Source: Spirochaetae bacterium HGW-Spirochaetae-1 (GTDB lineage Bacteria > Spirochaetota > UBA4802 > UBA5550). Taken from it: a stretch of DNA of 64,000 nucleotides. This document shows positions 876 through 24,379 of the stretch, one piece after another. The notes beneath the pieces are model-generated. The model made no database searches. It had not been told where the DNA came from and worked only from the letters and a program-made list of their open reading frames with translations. The first letter of the stretch is position 1, and each line of letters starts with the position of its first letter. The translations under genes were made by a program, and so were the position numbers. The stretch covers positions 496,001 through 560,000 of the forward strand of contig PGXY01000007.1 in the NCBI GenBank assembly GCA_002839375.1. Reading direction: 5' to 3'.

Positions 876-1087
876 GTAAAACGTTTTCCGGCAGCCAGAT
901 TGTAAAAGCCCTCAGAAGAATCGGTTTCATCGTAGACCACCAGAAAGGTAGCCACATATTTATGCACAACCTGGAAAAAAATATATCTGTCATTATCCCG
1001 AATCATAAAGAAATAAAAAAAGGCACGCTCAATAATATAATCAAAAAAGCCGGAATTACCATTGATGAATTGAAAACATTAATTTAG
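872..1087 (+). CDS. hicA: HicA-family mRNA interferase toxin
   Basis: A 71-residue dsRBD-like HicA toxin that would cleave mRNA and arrest translation when HicB is degraded. The motif QKGSHIFM carries the conserved catalytic histidine, with the preceding helix [14 protein letters not shown] typical of the family. The later [19 protein letters not shown] matches the canonical region that follows. The start is TTG at 872-874, inside the TTGA overlap with the hicB stop. A weak start dependent on antitoxin translation fits a toxin gene. The 3-prime end overlaps the Rhs remnant on the other strand by 9 bp. Confidence 0.9.
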
Positions 1088-1516
1088 CTCTTCCCCCTTC
1101 GTGCTGTTCAATATCCCCGTCACATACTCATAGAGGTTCACACCCTCGGAATAGACCTTGCCCCAGAACTCCTGTTCTTCCTGTTGCCGCTCCTCTTCAT
1201 CCCCTCCCCTGGGCCGGTCATACACCGCGGGATTATTCCGGAACAGCGGATCAGCGGAGAGCCACCGCCCCAGCCAGCTTGCGTAGTACCGGGCCCCGAA
1301 GTAGTACAGGCCCGTGGCGTCGTCTTTCTCTTTGCCCGTGTACCGGTACTCCTTGAGTTTTACCTCTTTCTGTGCCGTGCCGGCCATGAGGCTCGTGTCA
1401 CCGTAGGGAAAATATTCTTCATAGGAAATGATGCTTCCGGAATTGTCCAGTTCCAGCGAGGCGCTGTCCAGGTGGTTGGAGAATGGAAGTAACAAGTTGC
1501 AAGGCAAAAGGAGCAA
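1079..1516 (-). pseudogene. Rhs/YD-repeat core, C-terminal fragment
   Basis: The minus frame encodes the end of an Rhs-repeat-associated core domain. Recognisable pieces are NHLDSASLELDNSGSI, then YEEYFPYG, then YRYTGKEKDDATGLYYFGAR and GRWLSADP, ending near GVNLYEYV. Intact Rhs proteins are over 1000 residues and end in a variable toxin. Here only about 130 core residues remain, with almost nothing after the core. Similarity begins near 1480; the first codons read through the palindromic repeat 1487-1559. Another Rhs piece lies at 1571-1714. This is a decaying remnant, not a working gene. Confidence 0.85.
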
Positions 1517-3978: not shown

Positions 3979-5865
3979 TCAATTCACATTTATTTTTCCG
4001 AGAAAATCATCGACCGCCCATTGTCTCAGAAGTTTCTTGTTTATTTTCTGGACCTCAGTCAAAGGCAGTTCATCGACAATTTTCAGATATTTTGGCAGGG
4101 CATATTTTGCTATTTTTGACTTGAGAAATTCCATCACTTCAGCCTCGGTGATAACCGCTCTGAATTCCTCCCGGGGCTGAATATATACGGCCACCCTTTC
4201 GCTCCCTTCACGATCAGGATCGGGTATACCGATAGTAGCAGCCATCTCCACGTAGGTATGACTGTTAAGAATATCATCAACCTCGCGCGAGTAGACCTTG
4301 TAGCCCGAAACGATAATCATATCCTTGGTCCTGTCCACAATGTAGAAATATCCCCGCTCATCGATTCGCACGACATCACTGGTATGGATATATCCATCTT
4401 CGTCAATTCCGCTTCCCGCATCAGGCCAGTAACCCAGCATGCGTTGAGGCCCCCGCAGGAGCATTTCCCCGGTTTTCCCCGTCAGCATCTCCTCCCATGA
4501 CAATTCGCGCTGCGTATCCACATCAATTATTTTCACTTCCGTGTCGGGGAACGGAACGCCGATAGTCCCCCTTTTTTCCTTTGTTTTTTTGCCTTTTTTA
4601 CCGCTGTTCGCCGTAAGCCTGAACTGCAGGCCGAGAATCTTCGTAAACATTTTCCCGAACAGGCGCGTACCCATCAATCGAATAAAAGTGTTAATCACAG
4701 GCCCGACTCCCGGAATACGCAGAAAATTGCAAACAATCATCAATGGCGTCCTTCCACCGATGATCCTGGTCAGAATGGAGGTATTGAGATGCGACACGGG
4801 CGACATCTCGGAAAGACCGTAACCTTCCATGATCCCGCCTCCGGTCTTCTCCTCGAACTCCTTCTGCGTTCCTTCGGCAAGGGGAGCCGATCCCGATATT
4901 CCCAGCATGGCGTATCCCTTAAGCTCTTCCCGGGCCAGATTCATGAACTGGACTGGCACGCCGATCTGAAGCACGGGGAAGTGTTCCTTTATCATGTCAG
5001 CCATTCCCTTTGTATCTCTTGGTTCGGGAACAAGAAGAAGATTGAAACCGTACAACATCATAGCATGCATGATAACGTGGCCATATGAATGGAAAAAAGG
5101 AAGAGAAAGGAGCACTGATATCCCGCCCCTTGCTACCAGACCGATCTGCCCCAGGGCATGAAGGTTCTGTACCGAATTGGCAAAAATATTCCGGTGCGTC
5201 AGCATGCACCCCTTGGGAACTCCCGTTGTACCGCCGGTAAATAAAAGCGTCTCTACATCATTCACCACATCGTATTCAACCTCGGGGGGTTCGGGAGAAT
5301 TCTTTTTAATAAGCTCCGTCATCCAAGTTGTGAATCTCACATTGGCGAATTTGTATGTCTCCTCATATTCCTGAAGGTCTGCCAGAGTCGTTCCGTAATC
5401 ATCGAGCTTTGTCAGAATAATAAAATCTATATCGATTCTTTTAGTAAGGATGGATATAACATCGACATGGCCGGCCATAGCTATTATTGCGCGCGGCGTC
5501 CCCTCCTTCAGTTTGTGTTCCAGTGTATCGGCTGGTTCAAGCGAACTGCAGGGGATATGCACAAGACCGGCCCGCGATATGGCATAGTCGGCAAGTATGA
5601 ACTGGATGGATGTGGGAAGTATGGTGGCGACCCGATCACCTTTTTTCAGGCCCATATTAAAAAAAGCCGTAGCCAGACGGTCAACCTTATCCTTCAATTC
5701 GGGGTACGTCATCTTATAGCTTAACTGGACAAGTCCATTCTTCCTGTACTTTCTCGCATTTTCCGCAAGTATGTCATAGACAGGCTTGTCCGTATACGGA
5801 GCAAAAGTAGAAGGAATTCCCACCAATCGATATTCTTTTTTCCATGGTACATTCTTGGCGGCCAT
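3979..5865 (-). CDS. AMP-forming acyl-CoA ligase (long-chain fatty-acid CoA ligase type)
   Basis: A 628-residue ANL-superfamily enzyme that activates a fatty acid to acyl-CoA through an acyl-adenylate. The nucleotide-binding loop reads LLFTGGTTGVPKGCMLTHRN. The A5 motif is GYGLSEMSPVSH. The hinge region is YFYIVDRTKDMIIVSGYKV, and the C-terminal part ends with LTEVQKINKKLLR, which carries the catalytic lysine region. Between A5 and GTIGVPFPDTEVKI there is an insertion of about 60 residues, hydrophobic then lysine-rich (GKKGKKTKEK), that ordinary FadD enzymes lack; it might touch membrane. The start at 5863-5865 has GGGAGAAAG upstream. An in-frame start 21 codons earlier lacks such a site. Middle gene of the SCP2-ligase-thiolase operon. 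Confidence 0.92.
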   Translation of the reverse strand: MAAKNVPWKKEYRLVGIPSTFAPYTDKPVYDILAENARKYRKNGLVQLSYKMTYPELKDKVDRLATAFFNMGLKKGDRVATILPTSIQFILADYAISRAGLVHIPCSSLEPADTLEHKLKEGTPRAIIAMAGHVDVISILTKRIDIDFIILTKLDDYGTTLADLQEYEETYKFANVRFTTWMTELIKKNSPEPPEVEYDVVNDVETLLFTGGTTGVPKGCMLTHRNIFANSVQNLHALGQIGLVARGGISVLLSLPFFHSYGHVIMHAMMLYGFNLLLVPEPRDTKGMADMIKEHFPVLQIGVPVQFMNLAREELKGYAMLGISGSAPLAEGTQKEFEEKTGGGIMEGYGLSEMSPVSHLNTSILTRIIGGRTPLMIVCNFLRIPGVGPVINTFIRLMGTRLFGKMFTKILGLQFRLTANSGKKGKKTKEKRGTIGVPFPDTEVKIIDVDTQRELSWEEMLTGKTGEMLLRGPQRMLGYWPDAGSGIDEDGYIHTSDVVRIDERGYFYIVDRTKDMIIVSGYKVYSREVDDILNSHTYVEMAATIGIPDPDREGSERVAVYIQPREEFRAVITEAEVMEFLKSKIAKYALPKYLKIVDELPLTEVQKINKKLLRQWAVDDFLGKINVN

Positions 5866-5984
5866 AACTTTCTCCCAAATGAGATCTTTATTTTTCGATA
5901 CATATCCGTGCATTGCAGAACAATGCACAGACAGAGGTATCTTTATGACAAGATAAGGAAGAAGGGGAAAATCTTCCAGGTCTT

Positions 5985-6557
5985 CTATGAAAACAGGGGC
6001 TGCGTAGCCATGGCGAAACTCATATCGCCTTCAATCTTCATTGCACCGGACATGAAAAGATTAACGGGATTCGTGTCTTTTCTCATAAGAGCGGCGGTAT
6101 CCTTTGCACTCATCTTGAATATTGAATGAGGCTGCTGTGCACCGTTGAGTACAGCTTCAATTTTGAAGGTGTAGCCGTCTTCATTGGCTATTTCTGCAGT
6201 AAAACTTCCCTTGAGAGAATTAAGGGCATTGTATTTTGATTTGTTGAGATCGCTCTGAAGACCGAAGAGCATGTCAAGATTCTGAGTCTGGATCATTTTG
6301 TTGAGGTCATCCTCGGTTATTTTGATATACATATTTGAGCCGGAAATATCTCCTTTGGTAAACAACAATGATTTTCCGTCCTTCAGCGTGTAAGCGTATT
6401 TTTCGCCGTTTACCTCAACAACCATGGATATTTGTGTACCTGAAAGTTCCTGAGCCGCGCTGTTCTTGGCGAGCAGGTCTTCCACTATGCCCGGCATAAG
6501 TTTTGAAAGCAGATCGGCAACGCTCGTATCCGCTGGTACTGTTGGTAGTGTAGCCAT
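5985..6557 (-). CDS. SCP2 sterol-transfer-domain protein
   Basis: A 190-residue soluble protein with an SCP-2-like lipid-binding fold: AQELSGTQISMVVEVNGEK, then DGKSLLFTKGDISGSNMYIK, then a conserved LNKMIQTQNLDMLFGLQSDL stretch and a final MKIEGDMSFA. SCP2 domains bind acyl-CoAs, sterols or fatty acids and often accompany beta-oxidation genes. It is first in the leftward operon. ATG 6555-6557 follows GAGGAGA; an upstream in-frame start would place the operator inside the gene. The two palindromic operators at 6584-6623 lie 26-66 bp upstream, so the TetR regulator very probably controls it. Ligand not determinable. Confidence 0.85.
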   Translation of the reverse strand: MATLPTVPADTSVADLLSKLMPGIVEDLLAKNSAAQELSGTQISMVVEVNGEKYAYTLKDGKSLLFTKGDISGSNMYIKITEDDLNKMIQTQNLDMLFGLQSDLNKSKYNALNSLKGSFTAEIANEDGYTFKIEAVLNGAQQPHSIFKMSAKDTAALMRKDTNPVNLFMSGAMKIEGDMSFAMATQPLFS

Positions 6558-6583
6558 AATTCGTCTCCTCTGAATTTGATAAT

Positions 6584-6597
6584 ACTGACATGTCAGT
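6584..6597. promoter_or_regulatory. TetR operator copy 1 (ACTGACATGTCAGT)
   Basis: Perfect 14-bp palindrome identical to 6607-6620 and 7483-7496. It lies 23 bp from copy 2 centre to centre, about two helical turns, as expected for paired dimers of a TetR regulator. It precedes the SCP2 gene. Confidence 0.85.
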
Positions 6598-6603
6598 TTC
6601 AGT

Positions 6604-6623
6604 AATACTGACATGTCAGTATT
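6604..6623. promoter_or_regulatory. TetR operator copy 2 (extended 20-bp palindrome)
   Basis: AATACTGACATGTCAGTATT is a perfect 20-bp palindrome containing the shared 14-bp core. On the minus strand a TTGACT (6637-6642) stands upstream, so the operator would cover the minus-10 region of the leftward operon and block transcription. Confidence 0.85.
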
Positions 6624-11883: not shown

Positions 11884-12007
11884 AGCCCGCAGGTCAGAAA
11901 ATTTTTTAGCTGTATCATATTCTATGAATGATTTTGCGACCCTGATAATGTGCATAATCACTTTTCCCCTTCTACATGATGCACTATGGACCTGCGGGCT
12001 TTTTTTA
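11884..12007 (+). terminator. Long-range stem with T tract after the beta-oxidation operon
   Basis: AGCCCGCAGGTC at 11884-11895 is perfectly complementary to GACCTGCGGGCT at 11989-12000, which is followed by seven T. The right end is a plausible terminator half, but the loop is 93 nt, much longer than usual. The loop may fold on its own or form a regulated or processed RNA. The stretch holds no gene. Confidence 0.55.
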
Positions 12008-12025: not shown

Positions 12026-12397
12026 ATGAAATTTTCAATACTTCTGTATCTCTTTTATCTGCTTTTAAAAACCTTCTCATTTTTTTCCCCGTCATTTAAA
12101 AAACGGTTGCGCGAAAAAAATATTACGCTCCTCATAACAACGGAAAATCGTTCACGGAAGCGCTATTATATTATAGAAAATGGTCTGGTGCGTTCCGGGA
12201 AAAAAATTGTTTCTCATCCTGACATGTCACTCATCTGGAAGGACCACGAGACGGGATATGCATACATGCGATGCAGAAGCATAATGGCCTTCATGATGGC
12301 CATGAGAGAAAACAGCCTGAGACTCGAGGGGAAACCCCTCCCTTCACTCTGGTTCATGGGAATCATGGGTGAAATGGCTTCTCATTTAAAAAAATAA
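12026..12397 (+). CDS. Small membrane-anchored SCP2-like protein
   Basis: A 123-residue protein with one N-terminal hydrophobic helix (KFSILLYLFYLLLKTFSFF), then a small domain. The pattern ITTENRSRKRYYIIENGLV, then DMSLIWKDHETGYAYM, then SLRLEGKPLPSLWFMGIM resembles the C-terminal half of SCP2-like lipid-transfer domains, where a loaded-lipid loop is followed by a WFM helix. The assignment is by pattern only. ATG 12026 follows AGGAG; an upstream in-frame ATG at 11924 lies inside the terminator structure and is rejected. It is followed 18 bp later by the AraC-type regulator. Confidence 0.55.
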   Translation: MKFSILLYLFYLLLKTFSFFSPSFKKRLREKNITLLITTENRSRKRYYIIENGLVRSGKKIVSHPDMSLIWKDHETGYAYMRCRSIMAFMMAMRENSLRLEGKPLPSLWFMGIMGEMASHLKK

Positions 12398-12415
12398 TAC
12401 GGGGATATCCGTTTT

Positions 12416-13519
12416 ATGTTTCTTTCAGTCGCCAACAACATCATATTGTTTGCCGCTTCACTGTCCCTCCTGACATCCGTGGGCCAGCTGTTTATGCGGG
12501 AAAGAAGAGAAGAGAATGAAAACCTTTTTTTCCTCTTCTTCGTTCTGGGCGTCATTCTCATTCAATCCCACTCCATTATTACAGGGATAATGTACGAATA
12601 TCCCGCGCTCTTCTTTCTGAATATGACCTTCATGTCGCTACTGGGCCCCATCCTTTTCAGGGCCTATTACTACGTGATTTTTCCCGTGACATCGTTTCGA
12701 TTCAGGCACAGCCTGATCTTTTTCCCTTCCCTGGCAGTCCTTGCCGTCGATCTCCACTATCTTTTCCTGCCGGGAATGGAAAAGACCGCCATACTCCGGC
12801 ATGTCCTCCAGGGATCGGCAACAGTCGCCTCGCGGGTATACCAATTCACTTACCTGCTATCATTGCTGGAAGCCGCTCTGCTTCATTTATATCTGCTCAC
12901 GGTTTTAATCAGGGAGATGCGGGATAACCGGTACGGACGTATCCTCCTCATCGACATCACCTATACGGTGCTCTCTCTTGCTACATTTTCCCTTGCCTGC
13001 ACCGGCATACTTCTGGGCTCCGTGCCCCTCATCCGTACGGGAAGTCTCATGGCCGCAACCCTCCTCATCGGCGCGTACCTGGTGGGATTCCGCTTTCCCC
13101 AGTTTCTCCACCTCTTTTTCGTGAGCGCCATGACGGGCAAACGAAACCGGTCGCTGACTTCAGGCATCGAGATCGACCGGGTTCTGGAACAGCTCATGAA
13201 AACCATGGAGGAGGAAAAGCTTTACCGCGAAGAGGATTTATCCCTGCAATACCTGGCCGACGAACTGTCCATAACACCCCACCAGCTTTCCCATATCATC
13301 AACGAAAGTTTCAATATGAATTTCAACAACTTCATAAACCGCTTTCGTGTCGATGAAGTGCGTCACCACCTGCTGGCAACGCCAAGACGTTCCATTCTTT
13401 CTATTGCCCATGAAGTGGGCTTTAACTCCAAGTCGGCTTTTTATGCCGCCTTCACCCATTTTACCGGAAAAACCCCCACACAATTCCGCAAAGAAAAACA
13501 GTCCGGACGGTTAAATTAA
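12416..13519 (+). CDS. AraC-family regulator with 7TM-type membrane domain
   Basis: A 367-residue protein. About residues 5-240 form a polytopic membrane domain with six or seven hydrophobic segments (for example NIILFAASLSLLTSVGQLF and SLMAATLLIGAYLVGF). Residues about 270-365 form an AraC DNA-binding domain: LQYLADELSITPHQLSHIIN as first HTH, ILSIAHEVGFNSKSAFYAAF as second, ending FTGKTPTQFRKE. This membrane-tethered AraC layout is common in spirochaetes such as Leptospira. It stands directly before the aldehyde oxidoreductase cluster and is the natural candidate regulator for it, perhaps sensing a membrane-soluble compound; this is inference. Confidence 0.88.
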   Translation: MFLSVANNIILFAASLSLLTSVGQLFMRERREENENLFFLFFVLGVILIQSHSIITGIMYEYPALFFLNMTFMSLLGPILFRAYYYVIFPVTSFRFRHSLIFFPSLAVLAVDLHYLFLPGMEKTAILRHVLQGSATVASRVYQFTYLLSLLEAALLHLYLLTVLIREMRDNRYGRILLIDITYTVLSLATFSLACTGILLGSVPLIRTGSLMAATLLIGAYLVGFRFPQFLHLFFVSAMTGKRNRSLTSGIEIDRVLEQLMKTMEEEKLYREEDLSLQYLADELSITPHQLSHIINESFNMNFNNFINRFRVDEVRHHLLATPRRSILSIAHEVGFNSKSAFYAAFTHFTGKTPTQFRKEKQSGRLN

Positions 13520-13658
13520 TTTGTCCTGAATTATAATTCGGGGCGACAAGACCGAAAATATCGTCCTATCCTGTCTCATGTTACCGGATACCTCTCCCCT
13601 TTCAACACGGAGAGCACCTGCCACTGGCACAAAAACATAGAGAAAACAGGAGTTTACC

Positions 13659-15533
13659 ATGCAGGAGATTACAGGCACCAGCAATAAGATTCTTGAAGTT
13701 GATCTCACCATGCAGACATTCACCGTTGCCGATATCAGCGATAAAGACCGCCGCATGTACCTGGGCGGCAAGGGCATAGGCCTCAAACTGCTCTATGACC
13801 GGCTTCAGCCCGGCATTGATCCCCTGGGCGAGGATAATATATTCATACTCGCCATGGGCGTATTCATGGGCACGGGAGTGCCCTGCTCCGGCCGGTTCGA
13901 GGCCATTACCAAGTCACCCCTCACGGGTACCATGGTGACCGCGTCATGCGGAGGCCCCTTCGGTATGGCGCTCAAGACATCGGGATGGGACGCCATGGTG
14001 ATCCGGGGGAAAGCCAGGAACCCCGTTTATCTTGCCGTGGATTCAAAGGGTGTCCGGTTTAAACCAGCCGGGAGCATCTGGGGGAAAAACACTGAAAAGG
14101 CCGAAGAGCACCTGCTGAAAGAAGGATCGGGGGCCATGGTCATAGGCCAGGCCGGCGAAAATCTGGTGCGCTATGCCAACATCCGTTCCGGTCACCGTTT
14201 CCTGGGAAGAGGCGGCATGGGCGCGGTCCTGGGGTCCAAGAACCTCAAGGGCATCGTGGCCGCGGGAAAGGAATTTAAAATGGCCCCGGTCAATGTAAAA
14301 AAGTTCGAGAAATTAAACAGGCAGTTTCTGAAATACATCAACCAGAACGCCATAACGGCCGGTTCCTTTCGTTCCTACGGAACTAATGCCAACCTTAACC
14401 TGTCCAACGCGGCGGGGATATTACCGGTGAGAAATTTCACCGGCGGCACACACGGCTCGGCTTACAAGATTTCCGGCGAGGCCATGGCCGAAAATTTTAA
14501 CACAAAGTTCGATACCTGCAAGCCCTGTTCCATTCTCTGCGGCCACAAGGGAACCATCGAAGGAGAAGAACGCCACATTCCCGAATACGAAACCATCACA
14601 CTCCTGGGCTCAAACCTGGAAATTTTCGATCCCGTACTCATCTCACGTTGGAACGAACTATGCTCGGAGTACGGCATGGATACCATATCCACGGGCGGCA
14701 CCCTGGCATGGGCCATGGAGGCCACGGAAAAAGGCCTCATTAAAACCGGCCTGAAATTCGGAAATCCCGACGGCGTATCGGAGATGATAAAAGATATCGC
14801 ACTGCGAAGAGGTATCGGCAGGGACCTGGCCCTGGGTTCGGCCCTGGCCTCAAAAAAATACGGGGGTGAGGATTTTGCCATGCATGTCAAGGGCATGGAA
14901 CTGCCGGGCTATGACCCCAGGGGATGTTTCGGTCAGGGGCTGTCCTATGCCACGGCAAATCGCGGCGGGTGCCATTTATCCTCATACGTTCTGTCCCTGG
15001 AAGCCTTCCTGGGAATGGCCGATCCCCATGCCCTGCGATGGAAACCCTTCATGGTTAAATTCCTCGAGAACACCTTCGCCGCCGTGAACTCGCTCCATAT
15101 TTGCCAGTTTACGGCATTCGCGGTATTCCTTGAACCGCCTCTCATCAAGGCAACACCCACTTTTCTTATAAAAATACTGAACCAGAATATTTCCCTGCTG
15201 GCCCTGAACCTCATGGATGTAAGCCTCTGGCCCGAACTCTGGCATGCTATTCTGGGCAAGCGATACATACCCTACCTGAGTATGCTGAAGTTCAGCAAAG
15301 CCGGTGAACGGGTCCACGTTCTCGAGCGTTACATGAATACCCGCGAGGGAATATCCAGAAAGGATGACACCCTCCCCCGCCGTTTGCTTACCGAGGGAAG
15401 GAAATGCGATGCCGGAGAGAAGACCGTGCCGCTTGAGCCCATGCTGAAAAAATATTACCGTCTGAGGGGATATGATGCCAACGGCATTCCGAAAAAACGT
15501 ACCCTCCGCCGTCTCGGCATTACCGTGCAGTAA
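13659..15533 (+). CDS. Aldehyde:ferredoxin oxidoreductase, tungstopterin type
   Basis: A 624-residue AOR-family enzyme that oxidises aldehydes to acids with ferredoxin, or reduces acids in reverse. The N-terminal domain shows YLGGKGIGLKLLYDRL and SGRFEAITKSPLTGT. The [4Fe-4S] ligands are C287, C290 and C294 in CKPCSILCGHKG plus C482 in NSLHICQF, all retained. A cofactor-binding EYGMDTISTGG motif lies near 338-347. Length matches the family (about 605-630). The start follows AGGAG. Two iron-ADH-type genes follow, suggesting an acid-aldehyde-alcohol route. The tungsten cofactor is inferred from the family. Confidence 0.92.
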   Translation: MQEITGTSNKILEVDLTMQTFTVADISDKDRRMYLGGKGIGLKLLYDRLQPGIDPLGEDNIFILAMGVFMGTGVPCSGRFEAITKSPLTGTMVTASCGGPFGMALKTSGWDAMVIRGKARNPVYLAVDSKGVRFKPAGSIWGKNTEKAEEHLLKEGSGAMVIGQAGENLVRYANIRSGHRFLGRGGMGAVLGSKNLKGIVAAGKEFKMAPVNVKKFEKLNRQFLKYINQNAITAGSFRSYGTNANLNLSNAAGILPVRNFTGGTHGSAYKISGEAMAENFNTKFDTCKPCSILCGHKGTIEGEERHIPEYETITLLGSNLEIFDPVLISRWNELCSEYGMDTISTGGTLAWAMEATEKGLIKTGLKFGNPDGVSEMIKDIALRRGIGRDLALGSALASKKYGGEDFAMHVKGMELPGYDPRGCFGQGLSYATANRGGCHLSSYVLSLEAFLGMADPHALRWKPFMVKFLENTFAAVNSLHICQFTAFAVFLEPPLIKATPTFLIKILNQNISLLALNLMDVSLWPELWHAILGKRYIPYLSMLKFSKAGERVHVLERYMNTREGISRKDDTLPRRLLTEGRKCDAGEKTVPLEPMLKKYYRLRGYDANGIPKKRTLRRLGITVQ

Positions 15534-15603
15534 AATGACATCTTTCCTCGTCGATATCGACGGGGAAATGAACAGCATATTGTGACTTTCATACAGGAGA
15601 AGG

Positions 15604-16764
15604 ATGAAAATGAAATTATTCGATTACAGATTTTTCAGTCATTCCAAGATAGTATCGGGCAGTTGCGCATTGGAGACCATTCCGGCTGAACTGGAAAGCT
15701 ATGATGCCCGCAAGCCCCTGGTGATAACGGGAAAAGACATCACACGTCGCGGCCTGGAGAAAAAACTGATCAGGGCCTTTTATGATTCGGGTTTTCCTCT
15801 TGGCGGGATATATGATGAAGTGCGTGATTATGCCGGTATAGGCCTGGCACAAGAAGCAGCCCATCTCTTCAGGGAAAGAGGCTGTGACTCTCTCATTTCC
15901 CTCGGAAGCGGACCCATAACAGATACTGCCAGGGCAGTCAACATCCTTGTATCCGATGCCTCCGGTGATCCTTTCAGGTTTTTCGACGGAACGCCCCTTG
16001 CCATAAAAATGAAGCCCATGGTTCTCATTCCCACCTGCTGTTCCGGCGGGCTTGAGGCCGGAAATATCATCACTCTGGACAACCGGCAGTTTCAGTCCGA
16101 TTCACTCTATCCCGATGTCGTTATCCTGGACAAGCGGATGACTCCCGCCTGTTCATCGCGATGCGCCGCAGAGTCGGCCGTTTTGGCCATGGACAATGCC
16201 ATCTCAGCCCTCATGGACAGTAAAAGCAATCCCATGAACGATGCCTTTATACATGCATCACTTCAGTTCATATCACAAAACCTGGCAAAGTCAATGCGGC
16301 GGCCCAAAAATAAAAAGATCAGTCTTGCCATGGCCAATGCCGGGGTTATGGCCGGAATTGCCGCATCAAATGCAGGGCCCGGCCTGGTGCGGCTCCTATC
16401 CGAAGAACTATCCCGCTCAACAGGCCTTTCCCGGGGCGTGTTCACGGCGATGTTGCTTCCGTCAGCACTTGTTCACCGGGAGCAACAGCCTGACCCCCTG
16501 AACGGTGATCTGCTGCTTGCGCTGAAAGGCATGGATGTCTTTTCTGGGACGCCGGAAAGGAAACGGAGCAGCAGAGGTATCGAATCCGCCCTTGATCTTA
16601 TCGGCATGACAAAAAAAATAATTCCTGAAACCCTGTCCGCATTGAACATTCCTTACTACAAGCTTGAAGATGCCGCAGAAAAAGCGGCAGCCAGGAGCCA
16701 TAAAACCTTCTCCAGCGAGGACTGTCTTGCCGTTATGGGTCTTAGCCGGCAGGTAAGAAAATAG
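15604..16764 (+). CDS. Iron-ADH-family paralogue lacking metal ligands (probable pseudo-enzyme)
   Basis: A 386-residue protein that aligns end to end with the intact iron-containing alcohol dehydrogenase at 17381-18628. Key residues have changed. The nucleotide loop GGGS has become LGSGP at 100-104, and GTGSE has become CSGGLE. Of the four metal ligands D-H-H-H, only the aspartate (D197) remains; the histidines align with S201, R263 and R277. It therefore cannot bind iron in the usual way. The frame is full length with a good AGGAG site, so it is maintained, not decaying. It may be a structural or regulatory partner of the active enzyme. It sits 70 bp after the aldehyde oxidoreductase. Confidence 0.85.
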   Translation: MKMKLFDYRFFSHSKIVSGSCALETIPAELESYDARKPLVITGKDITRRGLEKKLIRAFYDSGFPLGGIYDEVRDYAGIGLAQEAAHLFRERGCDSLISLGSGPITDTARAVNILVSDASGDPFRFFDGTPLAIKMKPMVLIPTCCSGGLEAGNIITLDNRQFQSDSLYPDVVILDKRMTPACSSRCAAESAVLAMDNAISALMDSKSNPMNDAFIHASLQFISQNLAKSMRRPKNKKISLAMANAGVMAGIAASNAGPGLVRLLSEELSRSTGLSRGVFTAMLLPSALVHREQQPDPLNGDLLLALKGMDVFSGTPERKRSSRGIESALDLIGMTKKIIPETLSALNIPYYKLEDAAEKAAARSHKTFSSEDCLAVMGLSRQVRK

Positions 16765-16791
16765 CAGGGAACGCAGAAAAAGGAGTTTGAT

Positions 16792-17364
16792 ATGAATATA
16801 AACAAATACCCGGAAATACAACCGAAACAAAAAATTATAAAAAAGATTTATATCTTCATCATGCTTTTTATAGTGGGCCGCGCCATTGAGGCAGCGGCAA
16901 AAGTGGACAAGACCGTGAAGGATATCTTCAACGGCCTTCCCGACGATTTCATCTTTTATCTCGGGGTCAATCCCGGCGGCCCCTACATGGTTGTGGGCAA
17001 GGAAAAGGACGGAACGGTAAGATATCTTGGGTGGAAACTTTACGGTAAAAAAATCAGTCTCGCTATGAGGATCAAGAACGTCGAGTCCGCCATCAAGGTC
17101 TTCACATTTCAGGAATCCACGGCCCTGGCTTACAACTATGACCGTTTTATCGTTGAAGGAGACCTGCCGCGGGCCCTGGCCATTGTCAGGGTACTTGACA
17201 TCGTTGAGGTCTATCTCCTGCCAAAAATAATCGCCCGGCTTGCCGTTAAACGATATCCTCACTGGTCCGAAATGTCCCCGGTGATAAAGTATACGGGCAG
17301 GATCAGAATTTATGTCAAATCATTCACCACGGGCCTGGTCAGGGTCATACTTCAGAATTTATAA
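16792..17364 (+). CDS. Membrane-anchored SCP2-like protein
   Basis: A 190-residue protein with an N-terminal hydrophobic segment (IYIFIMLFIVGRAIEAAA) and a small domain. The central stretch KKISLAMRIKNVESAIKVFT, then STALAYNYDRFIVEGDLPRA, resembles the SCP2-type loaded-ligand loop followed by an EGDL helix. A basic C-terminal tail (RIYVKSFTTGLVRVILQNL) may be amphipathic. The family is assigned only by pattern. The start follows AAGGAG, and the stop is 16 bp before the active iron-ADH. With the protein at 12026-12397 it would be the second membrane lipid-binding-like protein in the cluster, possibly presenting long-chain substrates. Confidence 0.55.
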   Translation: MNINKYPEIQPKQKIIKKIYIFIMLFIVGRAIEAAAKVDKTVKDIFNGLPDDFIFYLGVNPGGPYMVVGKEKDGTVRYLGWKLYGKKISLAMRIKNVESAIKVFTFQESTALAYNYDRFIVEGDLPRALAIVRVLDIVEVYLLPKIIARLAVKRYPHWSEMSPVIKYTGRIRIYVKSFTTGLVRVILQNL

Positions 17365-17380
17365 AAGGGGGAGAAATATT

Positions 17381-18628
17381 ATGATAATGCCGGATTTTTA
17401 CGATTTCTGCTGCCGTGTCAGAACAGTTTCAGGGAACAAGGCCCTGGAAGAAATACCGGGCCTCCTGGCAGGAATGAATTCCCGCCGCCCTTTGATCATC
17501 ACCGATAAGGGAGTGGAAGCAGTCGGGCTCATCAATGTGTTAAAAAAAGCCCTGGGGAAAAAGCTGTCTATCGGCGCCGTCTTCGATAAAGTACCCGTTG
17601 ATTCCGACTATAAAATTGTCGATGAGGCTGCCGCACTTTACCGTTCAAAAAAATGCGATTCCATAATAGCCGTGGGAGGCGGTTCGGTCATCGATACCGC
17701 AAAAGGTGTGAACATAGTGGCGTCTCTGGGAGGCAAGAGCCTGCTTCAATACCAGGGCGCGGGAACCGTGCGACAGAAACTCAATCCCATGGCCATAATT
17801 CCCACCACGGCCGGTACCGGTTCGGAAATGACCCTGGTTGCCGTTATTGCCGACACTGACCGGCATATTAAAATGCTTTTCGTGTCCTATTTTCTGCTTC
17901 CGGACCTGGCCATACTGGACCCGCGCATGACCGCAACCCTCCCTGATTTTCTCACGGCCGCAACGGCCATGGATGCCATGACCCATGCCTGCGAGGCCTA
18001 TTACTGTATGGAAAAGAACCCCATGAGCGACTCCTTTGCTCTCGGGGCTATTGAATTGATAAGCAGAAATCTTCTCAGGGTAATGAAAAACCCGGGAGAC
18101 ATGGATGGAAGACTGGCCCTGGCCAGCGCTTCAACCATGGCCGGCGGCGCCTTTTCAAACTCTATGGTAGGGCTCGTACACAACCTGGGGCATACAATCG
18201 GCGCCCTGTGTCATGTTCCCCACGGTAACTGTATGAGCATACTTCTTCCCTATGGTTTCGAATATAACCTGCACCGCAGGGCCGCAATCATCGGCGAGCT
18301 GCTCTTTCCCCTTGCAGGCCCGGAGGTATATGCTAAAACCCCCAAAAAGGACCGACCGGAAAAGGTCATTGAACACATCCGGCAGATGAACCAGGATCTC
18401 CACGATGTAACGGGTGGACGGCATCCGCGCTTTTTAAAAGAAATAAAAAACCGCCAGGGTGATCCCATGGTTCCCCGTTCCATGCTCCCTGACATTGCCG
18501 CGGCAATGATGATGGACGGTGCAAGGATGCACAATCCCGAGGAGATACTGCCCGATGATGCGCTCATGGTCCTGGAGCACGCCTGGGAGGGAACTCCCCT
18601 GGATAGGAAAAAAGTTAAAAAAGGATAA
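17381..18628 (+). CDS. Iron-containing alcohol dehydrogenase
   Basis: A 415-residue group III (iron-type) alcohol dehydrogenase interconverting alcohols and aldehydes with NAD(P). Nucleotide loop GGGSVIDTAKGVN (99-111), then TTAGTGSEMT. Metal ligands D198 and H202 in AMDAMTHACEAY, H267 in VHNLGH and H281 in VPHGNC are all present. ATG 17381 was chosen for its GGGGGAG ribosome site; an upstream in-frame start lies inside the previous gene. It is the active counterpart of the degenerate paralogue at 15604-16764 and ends the tight part of the cluster. Confidence 0.93.
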   Translation: MIMPDFYDFCCRVRTVSGNKALEEIPGLLAGMNSRRPLIITDKGVEAVGLINVLKKALGKKLSIGAVFDKVPVDSDYKIVDEAAALYRSKKCDSIIAVGGGSVIDTAKGVNIVASLGGKSLLQYQGAGTVRQKLNPMAIIPTTAGTGSEMTLVAVIADTDRHIKMLFVSYFLLPDLAILDPRMTATLPDFLTAATAMDAMTHACEAYYCMEKNPMSDSFALGAIELISRNLLRVMKNPGDMDGRLALASASTMAGGAFSNSMVGLVHNLGHTIGALCHVPHGNCMSILLPYGFEYNLHRRAAIIGELLFPLAGPEVYAKTPKKDRPEKVIEHIRQMNQDLHDVTGGRHPRFLKEIKNRQGDPMVPRSMLPDIAAAMMMDGARMHNPEEILPDDALMVLEHAWEGTPLDRKKVKKG

Positions 18629-18742
18629 ATCTCAGGTAAGATTGCAATAAAAAACCGATTGGACGGTAATATTGGTTGACGCAGATATGGTACTGCCGAT
18701 CATTCCTCTGTACTGATCAATCTAGGAACAAGGAAAATCGGC

Positions 18743-19708
18743 ATGGCATTAATAAAAGGATTAAAAAAGCTTCTTTTCCCGCTACTGGCCACGGGCCTGT
18801 TGTTCAGCGCCTGCACCTCCATGGGCGCGAAAACTATACCAATGGCGGAGCTGGAAAAGAAGTATTTTTATAACAACTCGAAATGGATTGAAGTCGACGG
18901 CATCAAAGTCCACTACATTGACGAAGGCAGCGGACCGGTACTGGTGCTGCTCCATGGTGTATGCGCCTCACTGCATACCTGGGACGGCTGGGCAAAGGAA
19001 CTAAAAGGACAATACCGCATTATCCGCTTCGATAATATGGGATTCGGCCTCACTGGCCCGTCAAAAAATCCCCGCTATGAGATCGATAATTATATCCGGT
19101 TTCTCGACAAATTCACGACGGTCCTGAACCTGAAACATTTTACGATCGTTGGGAACAGCCTCGGTGGATATATCTCCTGGAACTACGCATTGGCCTATCC
19201 GGAAAAAGTGGACAAAATGCTTCTCATCGACACCGTCGGTTACAATCAGGAAGTGCCGGGGCTCATGAAGCTGGCCTGCTTTCCCATCATGAGACCCATT
19301 GTGCGACACATCATGCCTCGTTATTTCCTCGACAAGGCTGTAAAAGAAGTTTACGGCGATAAAACCAGGATAACACCGGAGCTCCAGGCTCGTTATTTCG
19401 AACTGGCCATGCGCGAAGGCAATAAAAACGCCTGGGTTGATATCTTCATGGTCATGAAGGCGCAGTCAAAAAGTAAAACGCTGTCTCTAAAAATAAAAGA
19501 CATTGCAGTTCCAACTATGGTCATGTGGGGCGGCAAGGATGAATGGGTTCCCGTGAGCCAGGTTGAGAACTGGAAAAAGGATCTTCCCTCGGCACGATAT
19601 GCAGTATTTGACAAGGCAGGGCATGTCGGGATGGAAGAGATCCCCGTGGAAACGGCCCGCGAGGCACGTCTTTTTTTCGAAGGAAAGGAATCAGGCATGC
19701 CGAAATAA
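18743..19708 (+). CDS. Alpha/beta-hydrolase lipoprotein
   Basis: A 321-residue lipid-anchored hydrolase. The signal peptide ends in a lipobox LLFSAC, so it is probably anchored to a membrane facing the periplasm or surface. The alpha/beta-hydrolase triad is visible: nucleophile serine in GNSLGG, acid in GGKDEWVP, histidine in AGHVGMEE; the oxyanion loop is LLHGVCASLHTWDGW. Esterase, lipase or epoxide-hydrolase-like activity is possible; substrate unknown. It follows the iron-ADH by 114 bp on the same strand and might supply acyl or alcohol substrates by cleaving esters; that link is inference. Confidence 0.85.
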   Translation: MALIKGLKKLLFPLLATGLLFSACTSMGAKTIPMAELEKKYFYNNSKWIEVDGIKVHYIDEGSGPVLVLLHGVCASLHTWDGWAKELKGQYRIIRFDNMGFGLTGPSKNPRYEIDNYIRFLDKFTTVLNLKHFTIVGNSLGGYISWNYALAYPEKVDKMLLIDTVGYNQEVPGLMKLACFPIMRPIVRHIMPRYFLDKAVKEVYGDKTRITPELQARYFELAMREGNKNAWVDIFMVMKAQSKSKTLSLKIKDIAVPTMVMWGGKDEWVPVSQVENWKKDLPSARYAVFDKAGHVGMEEIPVETAREARLFFEGKESGMPK

Positions 19709-22891: not shown

Positions 22892-24379
22892 ATGGACAAA
22901 AAATTTATAATTTCCATTGATCTGGGCACCACCGGTAACCGTGTTTTCTGTTTTGACGAAACAGGCCACCCCATTTCCAGTGAATACAAGGAATTCACCC
23001 AACATTTTCCCAAACCAGGATGGGTCGAACACGATGCAGAAGAAATATGGAAGTCCGTATTGGAACTGATACCTACGGCTATAGAAAAGGGCGGACTGGA
23101 TTCCCGAAACGCCCTTGCCATTGGTATAACCAATCAGAGAGAAACGGTTGTTTTATGGGACAAAACCACGGGAAAACCCATCTATAATGCTATTGTCTGG
23201 CAGTGCAGGAGAACGGCTGATATCTGCAACCAGCTGAAAAATTCCGGATATGAAAAAAATTTCCGGGAGAAAACAGGGCTGGTCATCGACGCTTATTTTT
23301 CCGGTACCAAGATAAAATGGATGCTCGACAATGTCATGGGAGCCAGGGACCTGGCTAAAAAGGGAAAGCTTCTCTTCGGCACCATCGATACGTGGATATT
23401 ATGGAATCTGACAGCGGGGAAATCCCACAAAACAGATTATACCAATGCGTCCCGTACGCTTATTTTCGACATCAAAAAGAAAAAATGGTCGAAGGAACTT
23501 ACGGAAATTCTGAATATTCCCGTAAACATACTGCCCGAAGTGAATGATTCAGCCTCGCATTTTGGCGAAACAAAAGACGTCAAAGGCCTGCCCGACGGTG
23601 TTGTCATTGGAGGAATTGCCGGCGACCAGCAATCCGCCATGGTGGGACAAAACTGTGTTTTTGAAGGCACCATGAAAAACACCTATGGCACTGGATGCTT
23701 TGTGCTTATTAACAACGGAAACAATTTCACCATTTCCCAGAACGGACTCCTCACGACACTGGCCTGCGACAACAAGGGAAAACCGGTCTATGCCCTGGAG
23801 GGATCAATATTCATCGGCGGCGCGGTCATTCAGTGGCTACGGGATTACATGAAATTTTTCCACAGCAGTACTGAATCGGAGGGCATGGCCACCTCGCTCT
23901 TCAACAAGGAAGACGAAGTGGTTCTCATTCCAGCCTTTGTGGGACTGGGGGCTCCCTACTGGAAAATGGATGCCCGGGGCGCAATTTTCGGACTCACAAG
24001 GGACACGACACGGGAGCAAATCGTGAAGGCAGCCCTGAAGTCCATAGCCTTCCAGTCCATGGATGTTATCACGGCAATGCAGAACGACACGGGAAAAAAG
24101 ATAAGGGAATTGCGCGTCGATGGCGGAGCGACCCAGAATAATTTCCTCATGCAGTTCCAGGCCGATATACTGGGAATTCCCGTGCTTCTTCCGGAAATAA
24201 TTGAATCAACCGCCCTGGGAGCGGCGTACCTGGCAGGAATCACGGCGGGGGTATTCGGCAATGTGGATGAAGTGGCTCATAAAAACAAAATATCCTCTAA
24301 ATTCGAACCGGTCATGAACGAAGCGGCAATTAATCGTGAAGTCATGCTCTGGCGTGAGGCGATCAAACGATTGCTATAA
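22892..24379 (+). CDS. glpK: Glycerol kinase
   Basis: A 495-residue FGGY kinase making glycerol 3-phosphate from glycerol and ATP. N-terminal phosphate loop DLGTTGNRVFCFDE, glycerol-site region GWVEHDAEEIW, the NQRET motif in GITNQRETVVLWD, and the C-terminal ATP-binding signature LRVDGGATQNNFLMQFQADI are intact. Length matches the family (about 500). The ribosome site is weak (GAGAG), but a near-consensus promoter precedes the gene. No glycerol transporter or glpD is beside it. Followed 65 bp later by a small MshEN-type gene. Confidence 0.96.
   Translation: MDKKFIISIDLGTTGNRVFCFDETGHPISSEYKEFTQHFPKPGWVEHDAEEIWKSVLELIPTAIEKGGLDSRNALAIGITNQRETVVLWDKTTGKPIYNAIVWQCRRTADICNQLKNSGYEKNFREKTGLVIDAYFSGTKIKWMLDNVMGARDLAKKGKLLFGTIDTWILWNLTAGKSHKTDYTNASRTLIFDIKKKKWSKELTEILNIPVNILPEVNDSASHFGETKDVKGLPDGVVIGGIAGDQQSAMVGQNCVFEGTMKNTYGTGCFVLINNGNNFTISQNGLLTTLACDNKGKPVYALEGSIFIGGAVIQWLRDYMKFFHSSTESEGMATSLFNKEDEVVLIPAFVGLGAPYWKMDARGAIFGLTRDTTREQIVKAALKSIAFQSMDVITAMQNDTGKKIRELRVDGGATQNNFLMQFQADILGIPVLLPEIIESTALGAAYLAGITAGVFGNVDEVAHKNKISSKFEPVMNEAAINREVMLWREAIKRLL

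Follow-up and report, generated by a model that had tools for sequence, protein, structure and literature searches.

A conserved gene module joining an SCP2-fold protein to an aldehyde oxidoreductase, an alcohol dehydrogenase and its metal-less paralogue in anaerobic bacteria: a possible route for lipid alcohols

Introduction

Pairs of an iron-dependent alcohol dehydrogenase (Fe-ADH, here ADH) and an aldehyde:ferredoxin oxidoreductase (AOR) are known from sulfate-reducing bacteria. In the available portions of two reports, methanol oxidation in Desulfofundulus kuznetsovii is credited to an adjacent ADH/AOR pair (PMC10907483), and ethanol is oxidised in Solidesulfovibrio fructosivorans by ADH plus AOR (PMC10084766). 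The two enzymes can also lead from acid to alcohol (PMC12096430, and PMC10084766 in the portion available). Here we describe a gene cluster at positions 12026-19708 of a 64,000-nucleotide stretch of Spirochaetae bacterium HGW-Spirochaetae-1 (the window; G000:C7:496001-560000), in which genes for an AOR and an ADH stand beside genes for small proteins of the SCP2 fold (scpA and scpB) and for an ADH paralogue without metal ligands (psADH). UbiJ is a small carrier of hydrophobic ligands and a partner of soluble enzymes.

Little is known of the fate of long-chain alcohols, aldehydes and ether lipids in anaerobes, although ether lipids are abundant and long-lived in anoxic sediments. We find that AOR, psADH, scpB and ADH form a real and widely conserved four-gene module, smaller than the seven-gene system of the original prediction.

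Results

A four-gene core is conserved across phyla

All seven open reading frames (ORFs) that had been described at this position are present, on one strand:

12026..12397, plus strand: scpA, a small SCP2-fold protein with an N-terminal hydrophobic helix; outside the core, a separate family
12416..13519, plus strand: AraC-type regulator with a hydrophobic, multi-helix N-terminal half; accessory
13659..15533, plus strand: AOR, predicted to be of the tungsten type; core; C287, C290, C294 and C482 (Fe-S), E309 and H439 kept
15604..16764, plus strand: psADH, an Fe-ADH paralogue that lacks the metal ligands; core
16792..17364, plus strand: scpB, an SCP2-fold protein with a hydrophobic N-terminal helix and a C-terminal helical tail; core
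17381..18628, plus strand: ADH, Fe-dependent, with a full D-H-H-H metal site; core; a longer ORF begins at 17312
18743..19708, plus strand: alpha/beta hydrolase with a lipoprotein-like signal; outside the core and not conserved alongside it

The genome (5.2 Mb on 14 contigs) holds seven AOR genes, so that an AOR by itself is uninformative here. psADH and scpB were looked for in 59 genomes drawn from the family, order and phylum to which the window belongs; scpB is found in 29 of them and adjoins psADH in all except G046. An alignment of 12 scpB sequences served to scan about 85,000 species genomes by peptide patterns, a search that may let distant members escape; it returned 57 scpB loci, spread over Spirochaetota, Syntrophales (Syntrophus, Smithella), Desulfobacterales, Aminicenantes and Perlabentimonas (Bacteroidota). 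After removal of duplicates, the total is 69 scpB loci in four phyla, some of which end at contig edges.

Across these loci the same four genes, AOR, psADH, scpB and ADH, recur in synteny. The core is present in Spirochaetota, in Desulfobacterota (mainly Syntrophales) and in one member of the Bacteroidota, and the Aminicenantes have a version without psADH. The commonest orders are AOR-psADH-scpB-ADH (19 of the 69 loci, plus variants bearing AraC) and scpB-psADH-ADH-AOR (16 loci), followed by psADH-scpB-ADH (7), scpB-psADH-ADH (6), AOR-scpB-ADH (4) and others. Such synteny across phyla is more than chance. A comparison of neighbourhoods had been set beforehand as a refuting test; it found the four genes together in both Spirochaetota and Desulfobacterota and did not refute the prediction. 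Two further genes, named from reading their sequences, recur with the core: a MoaD/ThiS-like protein of 84-86 residues with GGG at its end, encoded ahead of AOR, and, in Syntrophales, a polyferredoxin after it.

The other three genes of the cluster do not belong to this unit. In nine loci, that of the window included, the module has an AraC homologue of one and the same family next to it, and the regulator is an optional, accessory neighbour. No counterpart of the lipoprotein hydrolase was seen around 33 relative loci. The scpA family of the relatives (about 112-135 residues) is encoded away from the core, in some cases next to genes for an enoyl-CoA hydratase and TetR; scpA therefore probably goes with the beta-oxidation genes upstream. 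We accordingly reject the seven-gene unit, since the hydrolase and scpA are not conserved with the core, and with the hydrolase outside the system, the surface hydrolysis step that had been proposed loses its basis.

Two AOR subfamilies fill the aldehyde-oxidising slot

Pfam supports the assignment of the AOR (E 1.5e-117 and 7.3e-70) and of two Fe-ADH proteins, and also identifies the alpha/beta hydrolase and an AraC helix-turn-helix domain at the C-terminus of the hydrophobic protein. The AOR and ADH identities of the original prediction stand, both active sites being intact. The AOR has the AFOR_N and AFOR_C domains, the CxxCxxxC motif with a distal Cys, and the second-shell Glu and His; the four Cys, the Glu and the His are retained in 51/51 AORs examined. 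A tungsten cofactor and aldehyde oxidation are predicted for it. Identity is 64% within the Spirochaetota-type and 59% within the Syntrophales-type AORs and 32% between the groups, so that two distant subfamilies fill the slot. At one locus (L103), scpB and ADH are followed by an aldehyde dehydrogenase (ALDH) with the motifs ELGGN and NAGQSC, whose nearest solved relatives are acid-forming; this ALDH takes the place of AOR, and an AMP-binding ligase lies in the same stretch.

scpB and scpA are predicted to share the SCP2 fold

At the gathering cut-off, Pfam, including SCP2 (PF02036), returned no match for scpB or scpA. The SCP2-like nature claimed for both is nevertheless supported by structure prediction. 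The AlphaFold2 (AF2) model of scpB has a predicted local distance difference test score (pLDDT) of 82, a predicted template modelling score (pTM) of 0.73 and a 24-residue N-terminal helix, and Foldseek returned 14 matches at E <= 0.001, all of them SCP2 or UbiJ. A hydrophobic 19-residue stretch characterises the scpB homologues (median 1.75 on the Kyte-Doolittle scale). For scpA (pLDDT 88), Foldseek matched UbiJ/SCP2 and the SCP2-like domain of alkylsulfatases. The two proteins are distant relatives of separate families (hhalign E 1e-5, probability 82%).

SCP2 proteins recur beside other sets of an Fe-ADH and an aldehyde oxidiser, with a xanthine-oxidase-type enzyme in G027 and with an AOR at Smithella-type loci. 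At L267:829-5279 (G027), AraC, an Fe-ADH, a Pfam SCP2 protein and a xanthine-oxidase-type molybdenum enzyme are encoded on one contig with the core module and close to it. L148 and L150 (Smithella-type) carry, over about 4.3-8.8 kb directly upstream of the core module, a second set of AOR, SCP2 protein and Fe-ADH. hhalign detected no homology between scpB and the 191-residue protein of L148, whose close relative in L150 matches Pfam SCP2.

The SCP2 domain is also found at the N-terminus of glycyl-radical enzymes of about 1,000 residues encoded in the genome of the window: L112:1476-4541 (G000:C6), L217:2433-5456 (G000:C8) and G000:C2:501719-504676. The N-terminus of the L112 enzyme scores 25.0 bits against Pfam SCP2 (cut-off 21.3). 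One copy is grouped with genes for an activase, an amidohydrolase, another AOR, a ThiS-like protein and EamA, and another adjoins a cluster of kinase, alkyl-dihydroxyacetone-phosphate (alkyl-DHAP) synthase and GlpD genes. Near full-length relatives occur in 21/59 genomes, 18 of which carry scpB.

psADH is a derived, metal-less paralogue of ADH

The ADH carries the D-H-H-H metal site and the GGGS nucleotide motif. Among 67 such ADHs, the Asp and two of the His ligands are kept in 67/67 and the third His in 66/67. psADH is homologous to Fe-ADH according to Pfam but lacks the D-H-H-H site, and does not appear to be a catalytic member of the family; read from the alignment, L, N, R and R stand in the window protein at the positions of D, H, H and H in active Fe-ADHs. 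The ligand Asp is kept in 0/58 psADHs, and the third His is absent from the residues listed for them, which bears out the original description of a pseudo-ADH. In a maximum-likelihood tree, which is unrooted and in which the program flags the long psADH branches, the psADHs form a single clade (100/100) joined to the ADHs of the module (95/83), with other Fe-ADHs outside. Judged from sequence, we take psADH to be a duplicate of the cluster's own ADH that lost its metal site. Loci without psADH (Aminicenantes, L102, L103, L160, L168) lie at the base of the tree, which suggests, as far as an unrooted tree can, that psADH was added to an older AOR-scpB-ADH set. An ErcA-type regulator (NF041833) was considered for psADH and rejected, as psADH scores 106 bits against an NCBIfam equivalog cut-off of 550; the ADH scores 269 bits, also under that cut-off.

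A candidate route from lipid alcohols to beta-oxidation

We propose, with a probability of roughly one half, that the four core proteins work together at the membrane on long-chain (lipid) alcohols and aldehydes, mainly from alcohol through aldehyde to acid, and feed beta-oxidation. scpB would be anchored there through its N-terminal helix and carry a hydrophobic substrate, as its SCP2 fold implies, in the SCP2 pocket. It would pass the alcohol to ADH for NAD-dependent oxidation to the aldehyde, and the aldehyde to AOR, which would form the acid while ferredoxin takes the electrons. psADH would most likely sit in a mixed oligomer with ADH as a docking or regulatory subunit. The acid would be activated by an acyl-CoA ligase and enter beta-oxidation, and the alcohols would likely derive from ether lipid turnover. 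What the analysis shows is gene conservation, predicted folds, the loss of the metal site in psADH, the intact AOR and ADH sites and co-occurrence; the scheme's cofactors, its seat at the membrane, its direction, its substrate and the formation of a complex are what we infer.

Three loci speak for the oxidative direction, none of them as proof: L103, with its acid-forming ALDH and AMP-binding ligase; a second copy of the module in the same genome, which adjoins an AMP-binding enzyme; and the set of AraC, Fe-ADH and Pfam SCP2 protein in G027, which stands with a xanthine-oxidase-type enzyme.

As to the substrate, the nearest solved relatives of the ADH include methanol dehydrogenases, which, together with the D. 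kuznetsovii and S. fructosivorans pairs, would suit a module that oxidises short-chain or aromatic alcohols as sulfate reducers oxidise ethanol and methanol, the SCP2-like protein serving another role. We consider this improbable, because scpB is a constant partner and better conserved in relatives (identity about 50-66%, compared with 32-48% for psADH), and because SCP2 proteins turn up again with other ADH and aldehyde oxidase sets. The lipid-alcohol reading is plausible.

Links to ether lipids

Ether lipids are an attractive and plausible source of the alcohols, although a weaker proposition than the lipid-alcohol reading itself. At L160, a DUF1667 protein, an FGGY kinase and an enzyme resembling alkyl-DHAP synthase (AGPS) are encoded directly upstream of scpB-ADH; the best solved relative of the last is alkyl-DHAP synthase (E 7.5e-69, compared with about 1e-19 for lactate/glycolate oxidases). 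The genome of the window has two close AGPS homologues (E 7.7e-210 and 7.4e-159). A close homologue of the L160 synthase is present in 26/29 genomes with scpB and in 10/30 others (Fisher p 1.1e-5). Within the order alone the counts are 26/28 and 9/18 (p 0.0015), in its 30 near-complete genomes 20/20 and 5/10 (p 0.0018), and with the order collapsed to genera 13/14 and 5/12 (p 0.009). In the order that holds Smithella, 12/42 genomes with scpB and 4/78 without it have the synthase (p 0.0006).

This co-occurrence, and the synthase beside scpB-ADH in L160, would also suit a biosynthetic direction, in which fatty acids are reduced by AOR at the expense of ferredoxin, ADH turns the aldehyde into fatty alcohol and alkyl-DHAP synthase builds ether lipids. 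The acid-to-alcohol chemistry of AOR and ADH is known (PMC12096430), and in one genus a glycerol-3-phosphate acyltransferase gene adjoins the module. We nonetheless think this direction rather unlikely: the synthase gene clusters with genes for GntR, a GlpD-type oxidase and an FGGY kinase, which has a catabolic look, L103 has an acid-forming ALDH where AOR would stand, and the route may not be needed for making ethers. The family that contains PlsA/Ger (DUF2229) is present in 55/59 genomes, an upper bound because the Pfam domain also occurs in other proteins. PlsA/Ger make alkenyl and alkyl ethers out of ester lipids (PMC11868695, and PMC9702350 in the portion available), so these bacteria may make ethers without alkyl-DHAP synthase; the wide presence of the family leans to the catabolic direction. 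As an explanation for the presence of the module it was dropped, being near universal and hence uninformative.

The same near universality in the order would agree with a role in fatty aldehyde disposal, in which AOR oxidises and ADH reduces the aldehydes set free from plasmalogens, with the redox balance kept; AOR plus ADH can indeed disproportionate aldehydes (PMC12096430). Such a role is very unlikely, as the module occurs in just 29/59 genomes.

Catabolism of ether lipids can be drawn more fully. Kinase and GlpD-type oxidase would yield alkyl-DHAP, alkyl-DHAP synthase run in reverse would free the fatty alcohol, SCP2-fused glycyl-radical enzymes would attack glycerol ethers or diols akin to them, and scpB, ADH, psADH and AOR would finish with the fatty acid. 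That the module closes such a pathway, an undescribed anaerobic breakdown of alkyl-glycerol ether lipids, is a tentative and rather doubtful extension. A cluster of GntR/FadR, GlpD-type FAD oxidase, alkyl-DHAP synthase, FGGY kinase and DUF362 genes recurs in Spirochaetota and Syntrophales (L216 and L217, in the genome of the window at G000:C4 and C8, and L218-L249). In the window itself, an FGGY-family kinase of the glycerol kinase type is encoded at 22892-24379, a few genes past the cluster.

Several observations weigh against the lipid-alcohol scheme. The co-occurrence p-values ignore phylogeny, and relatedness alone skews the counts; nifH, meant as a neutral control, is itself unevenly spread (over the cut-off in 1/29 genomes with scpB and 8/30 others) and was dropped, so that the p-values for the synthase are no more than indicative. 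In the order of Smithella, 30/42 genomes with scpB are without a close alkyl-DHAP synthase, and ether lipids are therefore not the sole substrate; the case for a single ether-lipid function is weakened accordingly. The tail of scpB is modelled by AF2 with low confidence, and ADH/AOR pairs work in both directions in known anaerobes (PMC10084766). Beta-oxidation neighbours, finally, lie outside the conserved neighbourhood. The lipid-alcohol idea of the original prediction keeps the support of the SCP2 fold, of the exchange of AOR for an acid-forming ALDH with an AMP-ligase, and of the AGPS co-occurrence, while we still only infer its direction and substrate.

Surroundings of the cluster

Upstream of the cluster lie beta-oxidation genes for a thiolase, an AMP-ligase, a Pfam SCP2 protein, TetR, two acyl-CoA dehydrogenases, a 3-hydroxyacyl-CoA dehydrogenase and an enoyl-CoA hydratase. 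In this fatty-acid regulon, the Pfam SCP2 protein (5985-6614, minus strand) adjoins the AMP-binding gene of the acyl-CoA ligase type (3979-5928, minus strand). The start of scpA is likely at 12026, which the family alignment backs; a longer ORF begins at 11924. A short ORF at 1079-1516 (minus strand) resembles the end of an RHS-repeat protein, as read from its translation. Terminator-like sites are near chance level, and promoter-like sites exceed chance, which is not evidence of function. A search of the viral structure library found no confident match.

Discussion

The module provides a concrete enzyme set common to several phyla of mostly uncultured, syntrophic and fermenting anaerobes. It is also a case of an enzyme that spawned a dead partner and has kept it adjacent since, and of a putative lipid carrier linked to redox enzymes.

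Several described systems share parts of it. AOR sensu stricto of Pyrococcus furiosus (1aor) and Clostridium autoethanogenum (9g7j; PMC12096430) belongs to the same family as the window AOR and has the same Fe-S Cys, Glu and His. Unlike these, the window AOR lies within an SCP2/ADH module, and the Syntrophales loci use a second subfamily, 32% identical, which a polyferredoxin follows. UbiJ and other SCP2-fold lipid carriers (6h6o, 1ikt) have the fold of scpB, which differs in its own N-terminal helix and C-terminal tail, in the lack of a Pfam SCP2 match and in adjoining redox enzymes. The AGPS route to ether lipids (2uuu, 4bby) has fatty alcohol as a common metabolite, and its AGPS gene co-occurs with the module and once adjoins it. 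In animals, the alcohol for this route is supplied by the acyl-CoA reductase FAR1, according to the available part of PMC5341075; AOR and ADH of the module would use free acid or aldehyde, not acyl-CoA, and the direction may be opposite.

Closest are the ADH/AOR pairs of D. kuznetsovii (PMC10907483) and S. fructosivorans (PMC10084766), which likewise combine Fe-ADH and AOR, lead from alcohol through aldehyde to acid and yield NADH and reduced ferredoxin. The module likewise encodes together an Fe-ADH and an AOR with complete active sites, their activity being predicted. The two pairs differ in acting on short-chain alcohols, and the available portions of these reports mention neither an SCP2 carrier nor a dead ADH paralogue. 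The original prediction knew of no described system with this set; this is borne out in the open-licence literature searched, where we found no paper describing the set of carrier and dead paralogue, but does not extend to the ADH/AOR pair. The chemistry of the pair is known; measured against that literature, what is new is the putative SCP2 carrier and the dead paralogue as a module shared across phyla.

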